Below are positions 1 through 32,985 of a DNA stretch of 34,756 nucleotides, in pieces. A model generated the notes under the pieces. It saw only the letters and a list, made by a program, of their open reading frames with translations, did not search any database and had not been told where the DNA came from. The position numbers were made by a program, and so were the translations under genes. Positions within the stretch are counted from its first letter, which is position 1. Every line of letters starts with the position of its first letter. The DNA comes from Candidatus Gracilibacteria bacterium S5_H10 (GTDB taxonomy: Bacteria; Patescibacteriota; Gracilibacteria; Absconditabacterales; Absconditicoccaceae), in the NCBI GenBank assembly GCA_019248075.1, contig JAEHHG010000007.1:1-34756 (forward strand). The letters run 5' to 3'.

Positions 1-101
1 CTTTTATATATCAAAAATCTGTCATACCTGACAGATTTTTTCATTTCCTTTGTGAAACTTTAGTAATTTTATCGAAGCAATGACTTATAGTGTTCTCTGT
101 T
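1..101. repeat. 101-bp exact repeat, copy 1 (window edge)
   Basis: Positions 1-101 are identical to 15341-15441, and the first mismatch is at 102. The unit holds a bidirectional terminator hairpin and the 3' end of whatever minus-strand gene lies upstream. In copy 2 that gene is the primase-like CDS ending at 15409. In copy 1 it is an unrelated ORF ending at 85 in another frame. Copy 1 starts at the first base of the window, so the repeat may be longer. Confidence 0.9.
13..41 (-). terminator. Bidirectional terminator hairpin
   Basis: A perfect 12-bp inverted repeat (13-24 with 29-40) has a TACC loop, and its arms end in A5/T5-6 runs, so it can act on both strands. It lies downstream of the minus-strand ORF that ends at 85. 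The same hairpin occurs at 15353-15381. Confidence 0.8.
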
Positions 102-480
102 CTTCTATGTAAATTTCGTATAATCTAAGAATTTGAAATGATCGTAGTTCAGAAACGGTTTTTACTACACTTTGATCTCCGCTTTTTACTGCTATGTAGA
201 GTTCTTTTTCTGCTTTCCCTTCTTCTTTTTTGAGCTCGTAATCGCTACTAAATGATCCGATGACTAATTGTTGCAAAAGATTCCAATCAAAGTCATTTTT
301 GAGTTCTTCAGGTGTCTCGTAGGGAAGTGGCTCAAATTTTGTAAGATATTCAGTATATCGGATTTGGTCTTTGATATCTCCTTGTATAGGACCAAATACT
401 GTTTCATATTTTTCTACGATCTGTTTTTTTTCAGGTTTTTCTCTGAGCTCTTCTATAAATGCTTGAAAATCAAATAGCAT
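85..480 (-). CDS. Hypothetical protein, 131 aa
   Basis: I do not recognise this protein. It is acidic, charged and probably soluble, with no membrane segment or signal peptide, and it contains no TGA codon. The ATG at 480 is the only good start, because an in-frame TAA lies about 50 bases upstream. Its last 17 bases fall inside the 101-bp repeat, in a different frame from the gene that ends in the other copy. The natural C-terminus may therefore have been replaced when the repeat was copied. No function is inferred. Confidence 0.6.
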   Translation of the reverse strand: MLFDFQAFIEELREKPEKKQIVEKYETVFGPIQGDIKDQIRYTEYLTKFEPLPYETPEELKNDFDWNLLQQLVIGSFSSDYELKKEEGKAEKELYIAVKSGDQSVVKTVSELRSFQILRLYEIYIEEQRTL

Positions 481-792: not shown

Positions 793-1989
793 TTATTTCA
801 TGTATCCATTCAAAAATTCTTTTCGTGTCATTGTTTTTTTGCCTTCTGGTTTGAGCTGAATATCTGAAACTGCTGGATGTAATGTCTCTTCTTGGAAGAG
901 TGGTAGTTCATCATTACTGTTGTATAGCGGTTCGTTAAGTTTCAATGATTCTATAATAACTCTTTTCCCATTGATCATAAAATAAATTTTTGGTCGAAGC
1001 GCGAAGGCACGATATTTGTTATAGATCGTTTCGATAGTGTCGGTTCGTGGGTCAATCAGTCAGGATTCTTTTTCAATTTTTCCGCAATATGTTGCTTTGT
1101 TTTTATCTTGATGTACTTCTCCCAATATTTTTTTCCCGTATTTTCGTAGCGTATTGTTTAAAAATTTTGGTCCGATTTTTTTCATTTCATCAATCAGCTG
1201 TTTGGTTGTCCATTGAAACGGTATTCTAAATCTGATGATATCAATCATGTTTCCTGTGTCCATTGTCGCATCCATTTTCATGATAGTGATTCAGGTCTCT
1301 TTATCATTGTGTAATAATGCTGATTGGATAGGTGAAGCACCGCGATATTTCGGTAATATTGATCCATGGACATTGATCGGTGCAATCTTTGGAATATCAA
1401 GGATTGCTTGTGGAATGATTTTTCCATAGGCTATGACAATTAATATATCTGGTTTCTTTTCTTTGAGTCGTTCTGCAAATTGACGTCCTTCTTCGGATTT
1501 TTCAGGATTTAATTTTTCTGGTGTTGCTATAAATCCAGAAAGTGTATTTGTATTTTTACATATTTTCTTTCCACATTGTTTGATTATATTTTCGCACATT
1601 TCCATGCCCCTACCTGCTGGTTTGTCACATTGAGTTACTACTCCTACAACTTCAAATCTTTTGTCATTTGTTAGATGTTCAAGAAAAGGTACACCTATCG
1701 GCGCTGAAGAAAAAAATACTACGCGATAGTGTTCTGGATCATACTGTTTGTGTGTACTTGCTGTGCAATGTAATACTCTATCGGTAGCATAAAAGATACC
1801 AGGCCGGAATCCATATCTTTTGAGTACTCCAACACTGTATTTGCTACAATGTGGTTCATGTGCGCAGATTCTTCCTTTTAGCCAAAAAGATAACAATCAT
1901 TTGTCCGGAGATAGCGTATACTGATATATTCTTATCAGGAAGATTGCTGGTTTTGCTAGTACTTTATTGATTTTCTTTAAAAAACTCAT
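793..1989 (-). CDS. fmt: YidD-Fmt fusion: membrane-insertion factor domain plus methionyl-tRNA formyltransferase
   Basis: One frame of 398 aa with TGA read as Gly. Residues 1 to about 86 match YidD, the small amphipathic factor that assists YidC-dependent membrane insertion: IYQYTLSP, then CAHEPHCSKYSVGVLKRYG, and a Cys and YDP near 75-85. From about residue 88 (YRVVFFSS) the protein is methionyl-tRNA formyltransferase, which formylates Met-tRNAfMet for initiation. It keeps NVHGSILPKYRG (about 207-216) with the catalytic Asn and His, and an ETGITIM/MDTG stretch with the catalytic Asp. It extends to the C-terminal tRNA-binding domain. The TGA at 1291 supplies the Gly of the ETG motif. There is no stop or new start between the two domains. 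The ATG at 1987-1989 gives a complete YidD N-terminus. The gene is divergent from holA across about 140 bp. Confidence 0.88.
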
Positions 1990-17208: not shown

Positions 17209-18177
17209 TTACGAAATTAAAATTCTTCCTGCACCAGTTTTTTCAATTTTTCAAAGTTTTAGCAACAATGGTTCAATGTCTTCTTCTACAGCTTTTTCAT
17301 TGACTCATAATTGGACGGCGATGGCTTTGACACCAAGCGGTCTATCGGCTTTTTCAAGTATTTCCAAATATTTGGCGTGAAGGGGAGTCATACCACCTTC
17401 TTCGATTTGGCTGTGTTTGAGGAATTCCTCTCGAAGGGTATCAGTTAAATTTTTTCAAATCTCCCCTCACCCCTCTTTATCAAGAGGGGAACGTGTTATT
17501 ACAAAGTCACGGATCTTGATACAGAGATTATGAATTTCTCTCGGTACAGAACCAACTTTTTCACTAATTTTTTTAATGGTATTCTCACTGGTTTTGATCT
17601 CATATTTATTGAGATATTTTTTTATGATAGTTTCTTTTTCGTCTGAAGTATATTCCATGAAATGAAAATGATAGACGAATCTATTTTTGATTGGCTGGCT
17701 TAATGATTCTGATTTTGTCGTTGCTCCGATAAGTGTGAATGGATTGATTGGAATCCTGACATTACCTCATTCGGGCATTACCATATCGATGACAAAATCT
17801 TCCATCGCAACATATAAGACTTCTTCTATATTTGGTTTGAGTCTGTGAAGCTCATCAATAAAGAGAATGTCTCACTTTTCTAATGTATTTAAAATGCTTA
17901 TAATCTCTGATGGTTTTGTGATCGCATATCATGTCACTGCTTTGATACTTACTTGTCATTGTTTTGAAATGATATGTGCCATTGTTGTTTTTCCAAATCC
18001 GCTGGGACCGGAAAACAAAATGTGCCCTACCTGTCATTCTCTTTTTTTACCGCTTTCTATAGCAGTTTTCACGATTTCTTTGATATGCTCTTGTCCGATA
18101 AATTCATCGAAAGTATTCGGTCTTCATGAATGACTGATGTTCAGAAGTTTGTCCGTATTTATTTTTTTTATTTCCAT
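17209..18177 (-). CDS. ruvB: Holliday junction branch-migration ATPase RuvB
   Basis: 322 aa with TGA as Gly. It is the hexameric motor that moves Holliday junctions with Ruv[17 protein letters not shown] opens the family domain, Walker A is GPSGFGKTT (57-65), and Walker B is [10 protein letters not shown] (104-113). Sensor 1 is LIGATTK, and the C-terminal winged helix ends EKTGAGRIL. Residues about 229-241 ([13 protein letters not shown]) are encoded by a palindromic repeat in the linker between the AAA+ and winged-helix parts. The canonical arginine-finger segment NRF is present. The start overlaps the upstream stop by one base (TAATG). ruvA and ruvC are not in the window. Confidence 0.93.
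17470..17489. repeat. Palindromic repeat inside ruvB
   Basis: CCCCTCTT / AAGAGGGG with a TATC loop, flanked by CTCCCCTCA. It sits in the ruvB coding sequence and encodes an in-frame insert. A similar motif (CCCTCTTT / AAAGAGGG) lies at 22185-22205. Confidence 0.75.
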
Positions 18178-18620: not shown

Positions 18621-20354
18621 TTATTTTGTCTGGTGTAATTTGTAATATGCATTGGTTGCATTCAATGGAGTAACGTTGAAAATAGTGCTTCCTATTCTGA
18701 TCGTTCCTTCGATAAGAGAAAGACTGCTTACAATGAAATTTATTGTACCTACTTTTGTTTCTGTGTCTAAGGTGAAGATATCTCCATATCGTGCAAAATT
18801 ATTCGTAAAATATTCTTTTGTACTAGATTTTACCACTTTGTATCTGTTTCCTAGAATTTCTATATATCCAATATTGAAATTTCCGTTATTCAAAAGATTC
18901 ATATCTACATAGACATTGGATTGTGGAAGATTATTTGTCCCTGTTGTTATAGATCCTGGGACGCTGCTAATTATCTGATTATCGATAGTTCCATTGTTGA
19001 GATTTTGGGTGATCTGATATTTTACCTTGAATCTATATAGTGACAATGCTACTTCGTATCTTGTGATAACATTATCAAAGGTTATAGAATCTGAAGGACT
19101 TACGATTCCCATATTTTCTGCTGTTTCAAAATATTTTGTCCATCGAGGGGATGATGACTCATCAAGTTTTTTTCCTTCAAATAATCTGATCATCGCTGTA
19201 ATAAACTGTGCTTTGCTGATAGTTGTTTTTGGCGAGAATGCTCAATTTGAACCTTGCATGATTCCTAACTGACAGACTTGCTGAATATATGTTATCAGTG
19301 ATGTGTCAGTCTGATCTTCATCATTGAATCCACATGCTGCTGTATTCGTGATTCCTCAAAAATTGAATACTTTGGCAAATTCTACAAGAATTTTTGCTGC
19401 TTGTTCTCTATTGAGTATTTCAAAGGGTTTATATGATGTAACGTCACTGTAGCTTGTCAATCCATTGTCATTCATCCATTTGATAGCTTCTATCAATTCT
19501 GGATCATTGCTGATGCTTAGTGAATTGGTAAGTCATGAAAGCGTTTCTACAATATCGGAAGTATCAGTTGTTGTACTTGTTAAATCAGATAATTGCGCTA
19601 AAAGCATGAGTTTTAATGTCTCGTTTTTTACGATATTTCTCAATCTTCGTATATAGATAGCCATTTCTCTTCTAGTTATTTGTGAGTCAAATGCTGATTC
19701 ATTATTGAGTGTCGTAAGTCCCATAGCTTGGGATTTTACATAGTAATCTCACCATCGAGGAGTTCTTTTTTCATTTGATATTTTTCCTTCAAATATTCTT
19801 ACTAATAAGGCCATAGTTTGTGGTCTTGTTAGTTCTTGTCTTGGTAAAAACGTTCCATCTGTCGTTCATTTAAATATTCCTCGCTTACATGTATTTGTAA
19901 CAAAACTCCTAAGTGTCGGATCTATTTCATTGGCATCGCTAAATGTACAACTAGTATTTTTTGTCTCTTGGGTATATCCAAGTACGGTAAATGCTTGTCA
20001 TATTATTTTTGCTGCTTCCTCTCTAAGAAGTCCGTCTTCTGGTCTATAATCGGTTTCATTGTCGTATTTTGTCAATCCATTAGCGTACATCCATGCAAGT
20101 GCTTGTTCGAATTCTGTTCCTGTTGTTGTAGAAACTACTTCTGTTGTGCTGTTTGTTGTTCATGTAGTGATGGATCATGTTCCATCATCGCTGTTTGTTA
20201 CTGATCCGCTGGTAGTTGATCCGCTGTTTGTTACTGTGATGACATGTGTCACTGGATCTATGACGATCTGGAAATCTCCTGTCTCTGCTTTTGTGAAAGA
20301 TGCGAAAAGTGTGAAAGCAACTGCAAATACCATTCATAGTATCTTTTTGTTCAT
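18621..20354 (-). CDS. S-layer homology (SLH) domain surface protein
   Basis: 577 aa with TGA as Gly. A signal peptide (residues 1-24, ending KAE) is followed by a Thr/Ser/Gly linker. Two blocks of SLH-like repeats follow, at about 81-240 and 285-450. Examples are ALAWMYANGLTKY..YRPEDGLLREEAAKI, FxDANEIDPTLRSF, GIFKGTTDGTFLPRQELTR, and again AIKWMNDNGLTSY..LNREQAAKI. The C-terminal 120 residues are a beta-rich, Thr/Asn/Ile-rich domain without SLH motifs. SLH domains anchor proteins to pyruvylated secondary wall polymers. A pyruvyl transferase gene occurs at 31963-32985. A -35/-10 pair lies upstream at 20390-20417. It is first in the operon with the two-helix protein, ruvB and the Nudix gene. 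Confidence 0.85.
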
Positions 20355-28736: not shown

Positions 28737-30104
28737 TTATTTTATCGCGAAGCTTTTATCTATTGTTGTAGACAAGTATCCTGTCAGTATTCACCATATA
28801 ACAAAGAAAAGGTAGTTGACCATACTGTCTTCGAATACGTGCAAAAATATTCCCATTATCAGTAAAGCAAGCCGTCATATATTCATTCCTTGTCGTATTT
28901 GATAGGTTATATCATATTTGTTGCTTATTGTTTTTTGTATTTTTTTTAGAACTCCCATTATACAAATCACTAATATTGTTCGGATTAGAAATCATATTGT
29001 ACCTATATCGAGCATGAGCTGAATGTAATAATTTTCCGGTAGTATCGTTCCATTGTGCAAAACTGCAGGACCTGATGTTCATAATCCATATCCGCTTGGT
29101 TGATCTATGACATATTGCAAGCTTCCAAATTTTGCTTTTATGTGTCCTATAGTCGATGCTCATTTTAATATACTTACTCCGATGATTCCTATCAAGACTA
29201 TTGCTCCTATTCAGACTGCTGCTTTTTTATGTGTTTTGATCCATTGGATATTGATGAAGGTGAGTATTACGATACCTCAAATGAATGCTGTTCTGGAAAG
29301 CGTCAATGCTATAGCAAGAATCCATAGTAGTATTGCTACTGTATTGAATATTATTTGTTTGTTTGCTGAGAAAAACTGTTTGATTGTTGTAAATTTTGTT
29401 TTGAAAAATGCGATGATTACTGAAAGAAATGCAATAAGAAAATATCCATAATTGTTTGGTCAGGAAAATATTCCTTGTCGTCTTGGTGTACCTTGATATC
29501 CTGTGAGATAATACATAGGTGGTTTTACTCAAAATTTGAAATCGTTGAGTGGTCCATATCCGATTTTTAAGAAGAGTTCTGGTCTTAGGAATTTCATTCC
29601 TTGTCGAAGAAACCCTACGATCAATGTTGTAATCAGTAAATATTTTAAGAATTTTAGTATATTAATTATTTTCTTTTCACTGCATAATCGTCCAATAAAG
29701 GTAGAAGAGAGAAAAATAAATATGTAGAGGAGTCCATATTTGATTCCTACAAAAACATCATACATTCATTTTCCTTTGAGTAATGATATCCCTATGCTGA
29801 AGGATAAAAGTATGACAAGAATGATTCGCGGTCGTTTTCGTACTCTCAAATATGATTTAATTGTTTTGAAATTTATTGCCACTATGATAGCGACGAATAT
29901 CACCCAAATCGCGTCTCTTCCCAGGGCAGGTAATTGTGGGTATGATCATCAGAGTACGCCATAGCCGATGACAGTAACAAAGATATGATACATTACTACA
30001 AATATCAAAAATGGTTTTAGAAACCTCATCATCAATGCTGTAGAGTAAATAATAAATGACTGATTTTTTATAGTGGTTCATATAATAAAAACAAGTTGAA
30101 ACAT
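28737..30104 (-). CDS. O-antigen ligase / polymerase family membrane protein (Wzy/WaaL type)
   Basis: 455 aa with TGA as Gly, with about eleven hydrophobic segments. The family features are a periplasmic loop before LAIALTLSRTAFIGG, the SRTAFIGG motif of the Wzy_C domain, and a later stretch YGLGTSGPAVLHNG with a His-Asn ending and PENYYIQLMLDIG, where NxxL follows in this family. It joins or polymerises surface glycans. The ATG at 30104 is the longest start. An ATG pair at 30032 (MMRFLKPFL) would give 431 aa and still keep the first helix. The region to the divergent GT2 gene is only 25 bp if the long start is used. Confidence 0.8.
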
Positions 30105-30129
30105 AAAGAAGAAAAAATATATTTTGTTT

Positions 30130-31011
30130 ATGAAACTTAGCGTCGTTATTCCAACAAGGGGAGATCAGAATATGAAAAACATTATTGAGTGTCTACAAAG
30201 ACAGACATTCAAAGATTTTGAAATTGTTTTTGTTGTTGATAAAAAAATCGATGCATGATCCAAAATCCATGATGTATGAAATATTCATTATATCACTAAT
30301 CTGACTCATACAATGCCTCATAATAATGCAAGTGCACTTAGAAATCTTGGAATCAAAATAGCAAAAGGAGAATTTATCCAACTGATGGATGATGATGAAC
30401 GATTTGAAGAAGATTATCTTGAAAGATCATTGGCGTTGCGAGAGGAATATCGTTCTAAGCTAGGCAAAGATTTTGTGCTGACACCTACACTGATGTACAG
30501 AAAGACGTGAAAAATCCAGAATCAAGGATTTTCTTGTTTCAATTATCGATTGTCAAGACCAATTCCTCAGGTTCTCTGAAATACATCTCGAGATTATATC
30601 CAGATGTATTCTTGAAATTCATTGCTTGCTCCAGCCTATATTTTTACTACAACACTTTTTGATGAAACATTGGATTTTGTTTATGAAGATCTAGATTTTT
30701 CATATAGAATCCATCGTGCTGAACATCCAATTATTGTACTTCGTGACCTTCGTATCTATCATATGGAAAGAGATAAAACTAAACTGGAACAAGCGCGAGT
30801 TGGAAATGAATATGCAGCATATAGAAAAGCAAAACATAGAATGCTCTTTGTAAAAAAATATGGAAGTCTTTCCGATAAGATAAAATTTTATTTGCTTGGA
30901 TTTTGGTGACAGCCCTTGCGGCTTATTCTAAAAGTATTGAGATTCGCTAAAAAACACGAAAAGTGGAAATTGATTAGAGCTATCATTCGTGGAACTTTTT
31001 CTTGGAAATAA
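30130..31011 (+). CDS. Glycosyltransferase family 2
   Basis: 293 aa with TGA as Gly. A GT-A fold starts KLSVVIPTRGDQN, with DFEIVFVVDKK as the next strand. NNASALRNLGIKIAKGEFIQLMDDDE carries the metal-binding DDD, and VYEDLDFSYRI supplies the acidic ED motif. It transfers a sugar from a nucleotide donor to an unknown acceptor. The C-terminal part, with FYLLGFWGQPLRLILKVLRF, may touch the membrane. It diverges from the O-antigen ligase gene. Its 3' end runs into a 32-bp inverted repeat. Confidence 0.9.
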
Positions 31012-31962: not shown

Positions 31963-32985
31963 TTATTTATTAAAAAATGTTGTAATAATATTTTGCATTT
32001 TCAATATTTTTTTTTGATAAGGATAGACTTTTGTAGGCACACCCAAAAAACTTGCTATCAAGAACAAGTGTAATCTGCTGCTTATGACTATGCTTGCTCA
32101 TGCGAGTGTTTTTGCAAATGTTTCAAAATCTTTTTCTCGATCCAAAATATGAAATCGCTGATCTTTGATCTCTGCTTTTACTTGGATTTTTTGTGCGTAT
32201 TTTTCATCAGCGTAATATGCATTATTTCCTTTTGCTACAGGGACATACATGATCTCATATCCTTGTTTGTAATATTTTTTGACGTCTTGGATGATGTCGG
32301 TGAAAAAATGCTCAGCGTTTTTGTTGATATTTACTATGATGTATTTTTTTTTGGGTTTTGTCTTCGCTGCAGCTGCTTTTTTCGCTTTTTTCCGATCATA
32401 CGCAAAGTACGAAGTATCCATAAAAAATTCTGCATTATTATATCAATATGCTTTTAGTTCGTGAATAGTCTCCATATCTCTTGCGAAGATGCGTTTCGTT
32501 TTTTTCATTATATGTGTGAAAAGGATCCTGTTGAATAGTTTTTTTGGTAATTGAATTCCTCCCATGAGATAAAGAGGTTTTTTAAGACACGGTAAAATTG
32601 ATAGCAGTCGGTATCGATAAGAATTTTTGTTTTCTTCGGTGATAATTTCTCCTCATCCGATAATTATTGCATTAGCTTTTTTATATAGTTTTCGTTCTTT
32701 GAGTTTTCCTTGACGAAGATAACGCACTCGGGTGCGGACTCATTTTGGTAGTTCTGTAACAAATGTTATTTTGCTAGTATCTATGAATTGATTGAAAAAA
32801 ACTTTGAGCCATTGCGGATCGTATGCTGCTATTGTTATGTTTTTTCCTTGTTCTACCAATAATTTCACTGTTCCCAATAAGATCAACTCATCGCCTAAAT
32901 TTTTGTAGGATCGATTGCCTACAATGAGGATATTTTGCTCTGAGATCATTAGTTGATTGTTTATCTTCATATATTTGGATAACAT
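31963..32985 (-). CDS. Polysaccharide pyruvyl transferase (CsaB-like)
   Basis: 340 aa with TGA as Gly. The N-terminus ILIVGNRSYKNLGDELILLG is the family start (G..N.GDE), IIIGGGEIITEEN is the next motif, and ARDMETIHEL and SSRLHLFLIASFLGVPT are late motifs, where RLH is conserved. It adds a pyruvate ketal to wall glycans, the ligand for SLH domains. The TGA at 32098 is read through, which adds the RLH motif and a C-terminal helix up to the TAA at 31963. The ATG at 32985 sits in the T run of the upstream terminator, so an ATG at 32970 or 32949 may be the true start. Confidence 0.84.

Follow-up and report, generated by a model that had tools for sequence, protein, structure and literature searches.

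The question raised by this locus is whether a gene that reads as the membrane-insertion factor YidD running straight into methionyl-tRNA formyltransferase (Fmt) encodes one working protein, and what such a union means for the organisms that carry it. In E. coli, YidD is a small helical protein that aids YidC/Sec-dependent membrane insertion. The window analysed here (the whole stretch of 34,756 nucleotides), contig C241, comes from a fragmented Absconditabacterales (SR1) assembly of 258 contigs that is 74% complete; the order consists of tiny symbiotic bacteria.

The fused reading frame and its two domains

The fusion gene is encoded on the minus strand (1989..793) and forms a single open frame under genetic code 25, in which TGA is read as glycine. 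The same frame is broken under table 11 by three in-frame TGA codons (G31, G233 and G310), and many genes of the window are open over their full length only when TGA is translated as glycine. The main features of the gene are as follows:

793..1989, minus strand: YidD-Fmt fusion gene, 398 aa under code 25, with an ATG start and a stop codon at 793-795; one-frame homologues are found order-wide
1897..1899, minus strand: TGA codon translated under code 25 as Gly31, within the YidD half
1291-1293, minus strand: TGA codon translated under code 25 as Gly233
1060-1062, minus strand: TGA codon translated under code 25 as Gly310
1732..1953, minus strand: YidD domain, aa 13-86, from PF01809 (aa 15-85), TIGR00278 (aa 13-77) and invariance over 38 homologues
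802..1728, minus strand: Fmt, from the profiles PF00551 (formyltransferase N-terminal, aa 91-279) and PF02911 (C-terminal tRNA-binding, aa 304-396), with homology to 1FMT/2FMT by sequence and fold
1366..1374, minus strand: catalytic N206 and H208 of the NVHGS motif, invariant in 38 aligned fusions and aligned with E. coli Fmt
1258-1260, minus strand: catalytic partner D244, invariant in 38 aligned fusions

Both halves score above the curated cut-offs of their families. The YidD half matches PF01809 with an E value of 1.8e-13 and 50.5 bits (cut-off 27) and TIGR00278 with 50.1 bits (cut-off 40). Directly after it, and without a linker, Pfam and NCBIfam place a complete methionyl-tRNA formyltransferase at aa 88-397, which passes the equivalog model TIGR00460 (E 6.6e-65, 219.3 bits, cut-off 201.5) and includes the tRNA-binding domain PF02911 (39.4 bits vs. 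a cut-off of 21.1). At the junction the YidD-type end '..YDP-EHY' leads directly into the first Fmt strand 'RVVFFSSAPIG'; in the window gene no stop codon or frameshift separates the halves, and the stretch reaching from 30 codons ahead of the Fmt start to 12 codons past it contains no ATG, GTG or TTG. The possibility that the junction conceals a stop or a frameshift was considered and rejected, the breaks under table 11 being TGA codons read as glycine. These results uphold the preliminary description of the locus, which had placed YidD and Fmt in one frame with no stop or restart between them, though it makes no mention of the dependence of this frame on code 25.

The same description held that both halves keep their key residues, and the alignment of 38 fusion homologues bears this out. 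In the YidD half C42, H44, P46, C48, S49, R71, C75 and P85 are invariant, so that the three conserved cysteines of the family (C..PxCS..RxxxC; C42, C48 and C75) are all kept, and the SPD, Y-Q and R..C positions are invariant or nearly so. The invariant residues of the Fmt half (R127, N134, N206, H208, S210, R216, G217 and D244) cover the catalytic Asn/His/Asp and the SLLPxxRG region.

In comparison with known Fmt proteins (TIGR00460; E. coli 1FMT/2FMT), the window protein shares complete N- and C-terminal domains, the catalytic N/H/D, the GRG loop and the fold, but an 86-residue YidD domain stands in place of its own Fmt start. The YidD half shares the helical core and the three cysteines with YidD proteins (PF01809, TIGR00278), including that of E. 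coli, which has been described as a membrane-protein insertion efficiency factor (Yu et al., 2011, as cited in PMC8082313), and it has the SPD motif as in other Patescibacteria; it differs in not being free-standing, in its altered GGxDPVP end and in its direct junction to Fmt. Of GGxDPVP, which is a sequence signature without which the curated YidD models can still be passed, the fused YidD keeps only the DP, whereas stand-alone YidDs of Patescibacteria mostly have GGxDPV. Relative to these free proteins the fused ones retain the SPD segment, but CRFxPTCS is changed to CAHxPHCS and the GG is gone (GGxDP to xxYDP); the fused YidDs score 29-66 bits against PF01809, as against 50-95 bits for most stand-alone relatives. 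ArnA likewise combines an Fmt-like domain with a second domain (a dehydrogenase), but it links enzymes of one sugar pathway, whereas the partner in the present fusion is an accessory protein of membrane insertion.

Structure modelling, which had been proposed as a check, places both domains confidently: an AlphaFold2 model based on 64 aligned sequences has a mean pLDDT of 96 and a pTM of 0.92, with YidD helices at 2-25, 48-59 and 61-74 followed by an Fmt strand at 88-94. Experimentally determined Fmt structures, among them the tRNA complex 2FMT, match the Fmt part with TM scores of about 0.82-0.84. Because the pTM is so high although YidD makes up only one fifth of the protein, the relative placement of the domains in the model is probably reliable. 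The conserved 'DP' end of YidD runs without a linker into the first Fmt beta strand, and the halves would thus be held 1:1 in one compact unit. A clear amphipathic membrane helix was sought and rejected, since the first helix is not clearly more amphipathic than shuffled sequences, and the result is not significant in most fusions.

Distribution, history and selection

The fusion protein is matched in 45 of 49 Absconditabacterales genomes and in all 26 of those that are of good quality. In 38 Absconditabacterales genomes both halves stand in a single open frame, with approximately 45-82% identity to the window protein, and the absence of the fusion from relatives, named beforehand as refuting evidence, is clearly contradicted. 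The genomes of the order that lack a complete two-domain frame are incomplete assemblies or have the gene cut at a contig end; in G315 the frame ends within an insert. YidD is detected above the cut-off once per Absconditabacterales genome, always at the fused position, and the fused copy is hence the sole YidD detected. That the genomes might also encode a free YidD or a free Fmt was accordingly rejected, as neither another YidD over the cut-off nor another strong match to the fusion was found.

In the other sampled families and orders of the class, including the code-25 families f141, f145 and f146, yidD and fmt are separate genes, and no YidD-Fmt fusion was found among 287 genomes spread over the phylum (the search being confined to Patescibacteria). 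As the other sampled orders keep the genes apart, the two were apparently joined once, in the ancestor of the order, and the union then became fixed; the simplest history would be that a rearrangement brought about this single fusion. An operon preceding the fusion, with yidD directly upstream of fmt, had been suggested by matches in some class members that started at aa 32-83, with an intervening stop. It was rejected: PF01809 positions put yidD elsewhere, and wherever both genes lie on one contig in approximately 14 sampled sister-lineage genomes they are at least 27 kb apart. This distance, together with an interval of about 300 bp between the fusion and the next gene downstream, fits less well with the earlier proposal of a gene-end fusion in a compact genome.

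The gene downstream of the fusion (85-480, minus strand) is conserved in the genus. In relatives (L031, L036 and L037) it spans approximately 195 aa between stop codons, whereas in the window it ends after 131 aa, close to the contig end, and is apparently truncated. Elsewhere in the window, translations judged by eye read as an S-layer-like repeat protein (18621-20354), an O-antigen-ligase-like membrane protein (28737-30263) and a polysaccharide pyruvyl transferase-like gene (31963-32985), which are probable cell-surface genes.

Purifying selection acts on both halves, which evolve at equal rates. Mean pairwise identity over 38 sequences is 53.5% for the YidD half and 54.9% for the Fmt half, and pairwise dN/dS is mostly 0.05-0.2 in both, these ratios being approximate because many dS values are near saturation. 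Genes for YidC, peptide deformylase and FolD are each present in 26 of 26 good genomes of the order, and FolD adjoins the fusion in G331, G332 and G333; on these grounds the order seems to have retained an intact formylation cycle. FolD is also found in the window's own genome, and peptide deformylase has no match in that 74%-complete assembly.

Our search, which covered the open literature, found no description of a YidD-Fmt fusion, and neither YidD nor formylation comes up in the main text of the Vampirococcus genome paper. What is new here is a domain architecture that joins two known families and is fixed in an order.

In-frame inserts in housekeeping genes of relatives

A surface loop of Fmt takes up whole foreign domains in some relatives:

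1531..1560, minus strand: Fmt loop aa 144-153, after the helix at aa 135-147; from comparison with relatives, the site of insertion in these and empty in the window

Eight relatives have an extra in-frame segment in this loop. In six of them (G292, G331, G322, G309, G315 and G318; loci L083, L076, L078, L074, L111 and L109) it is an RBBP9-like serine hydrolase, matched by PF06821 or other alpha/beta hydrolase profiles, in G291 a DUF559 nuclease and in G302 an unknown segment of 118 aa. In a model of the G292 protein the inserted domain is folded (mean pLDDT 82, pTM 0.64). The same hydrolase lies in frame within UvrA (G303-G306 and G319; loci L112, L114, L115, L117 and L120), SecA (G302; L107) and LeuRS (G334; L105), and free-standing relatives of it also exist. 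The Fmt-loop inserts are scattered on the tree, with sister species lacking them, and this scatter points to repeated gain or repeated exact loss of the hydrolase.

The DUF559 (Vsr-like) domain is embedded in frame in eight host proteins, mostly products of translation genes, at 13 of the 30 DUF559 loci examined:

Fmt: L082/L178 (G291)
LepA: L159 and L187 (G293)
RimO: L163 and L158 (G331/G322)
LeuRS: L160, L186 and L173 (G292/G322/G305)
MnmA: L177 and L164 (G315/G332)
Elp3: L174 (G326)
Tgt: L172 (G310)
MurC: L165 (G321)

The DUF559 inserts examined carry GC-rich palindromes at their ends, which often match when one is inverted, and almost the same ends are shared by inserts in different hosts (Fmt of G291 and LepA of G293; RimO of G331 and LeuRS of G292). 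Judged from their sequences, these inserts look like a mobile element that would enter genes in frame and, without splicing, stay as a protein domain; Pfam reported no intein domain in the proteins scanned. We take them to be comparable to the Rickettsia palindromic elements, but with a nuclease domain. Two LeuRS proteins have composite inserts, viz. a PDDEXK_3 nuclease domain together with the hydrolase in G334 (L105) and, in G292 (L160), DUF559 together with an apparent NUDIX domain.

Within the window, RuvB (17209-18177, minus strand) contains an in-frame GC-rich palindrome, CCCCTCTTTATCAAGAGGGG, near 17464-17489, translated 'SPLDKEGGGE' and resembling the ends of the DUF559 elements; the window itself may hold a remnant or a short element inserted in frame. 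A repeat family matching this palindrome in the window's own genome was rejected, only three weak matches being found. No description of in-frame DUF559 inserts, or of such inserts in housekeeping genes of CPR bacteria, was found in the open literature. The fusion gene brings to light a family of in-frame inserts in housekeeping genes that is apparently undescribed and whose members persist as extra protein domains.

Interpretation and significance

The order-wide fusion, its status as the sole YidD, the matched purifying selection, the invariant motifs, the presence of the partner genes, the lack of an internal start near the junction and the confident model make one working bifunctional protein the most likely product of this gene. 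We consider it highly probable that the single-chain protein is genuine, that it arose once in the ancestor of the Absconditabacterales and that it was then fixed. Both activities are presumably alive, and the chain would lie against the membrane's inner face. The C-terminal part is predicted to be the cell's methionyl-tRNA formyltransferase, which would formylate Met-tRNAi with 10-formyl-THF as donor, and the N-terminal part, as the only detectable YidD of the cell, is predicted to do its usual, still ill-defined job beside YidC.

That the fusion is an artefact of assembly or annotation, as the fragmented state of the window's assembly might suggest, can be virtually dismissed: relatives already refute it, the same fusion being present in dozens of independent assemblies that include the single-contig genomes G287, G288 and G328, and an architecture shared by 38 genomes of the order is not an effect of chance or assembly. 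Two proteins could also be made from one gene, with internal initiation just upstream of Fmt yielding free Fmt beside the fusion. Of 18 genera, 8 have an in-frame ATG 7-10 codons before Fmt, a slight excess over the approximately 4 expected (P = 0.03), and a separate Fmt might also arise there in several relatives. It would not arise from the window gene, which has no start codon in this region, and in several genera none lies near the junction; the idea of a conserved internal start, borderline in relatives and absent from the window gene, was rejected, and we regard internal initiation as improbable. A somewhat less remote, though still unlikely, alternative is that the YidD half was repurposed after the fusion as a mere structural or tRNA-contacting extension of Fmt and lost its role in helping YidC. 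The lower PF01809 scores and the loss of 'GG' mean that this role could have changed, as do the altered motifs (CRF to CAH, PTCS to PHCS and GGxDP to xxYDP); against this stand the conservation of the family's cysteines and of its SPD, Y-Q and R..C positions, and the retention of YidC.

For a genuine bifunctional protein there is the further question of why the fusion has been kept, as its persistence throughout the order is compatible both with selection for coupling and with lock-in after the loss of separate copies. We lean slightly towards a fusion that was simply tolerated and locked in. According to the coupling explanation, the YidD half would bring Fmt to the membrane or translocon and favour formylation of the initiator near ribosomes making membrane proteins, the fusion being kept for that reason; in a variant, the supply of YidD would be tied to initiation capacity. 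Taken jointly, these two forms of coupling seem to us doubtful. They gain from the fixation of the fusion in the whole order with re-splitting never seen, from the matched constraint on both halves and from a model in which the two domains, without a flexible linker, appear confidently placed; but formylation must serve all mRNAs, cytosolic ones included, and sister orders manage without either fusion or adjacency of the genes.

The YidD-Fmt fusion provides a clean marker at the level of the order, in which two universal bacterial functions, viz. initiator-tRNA formylation and assisted membrane insertion, are kept in one chain. The molecular role of YidD is poorly defined, and its natural fusion to a structurally characterised enzyme gives a way to approach it. 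Since the joining is kept throughout the order, it leads to a Rosetta-stone hypothesis, that Fmt works near YidC/YidD, which is directly testable in E. coli. Should the coupling explanation, tentative as it is, prove correct, the fusion would represent a membrane-tethered formyltransferase built into the YidC accessory machinery, and initiation would be spatially tied to membrane-protein insertion across an episymbiotic order.
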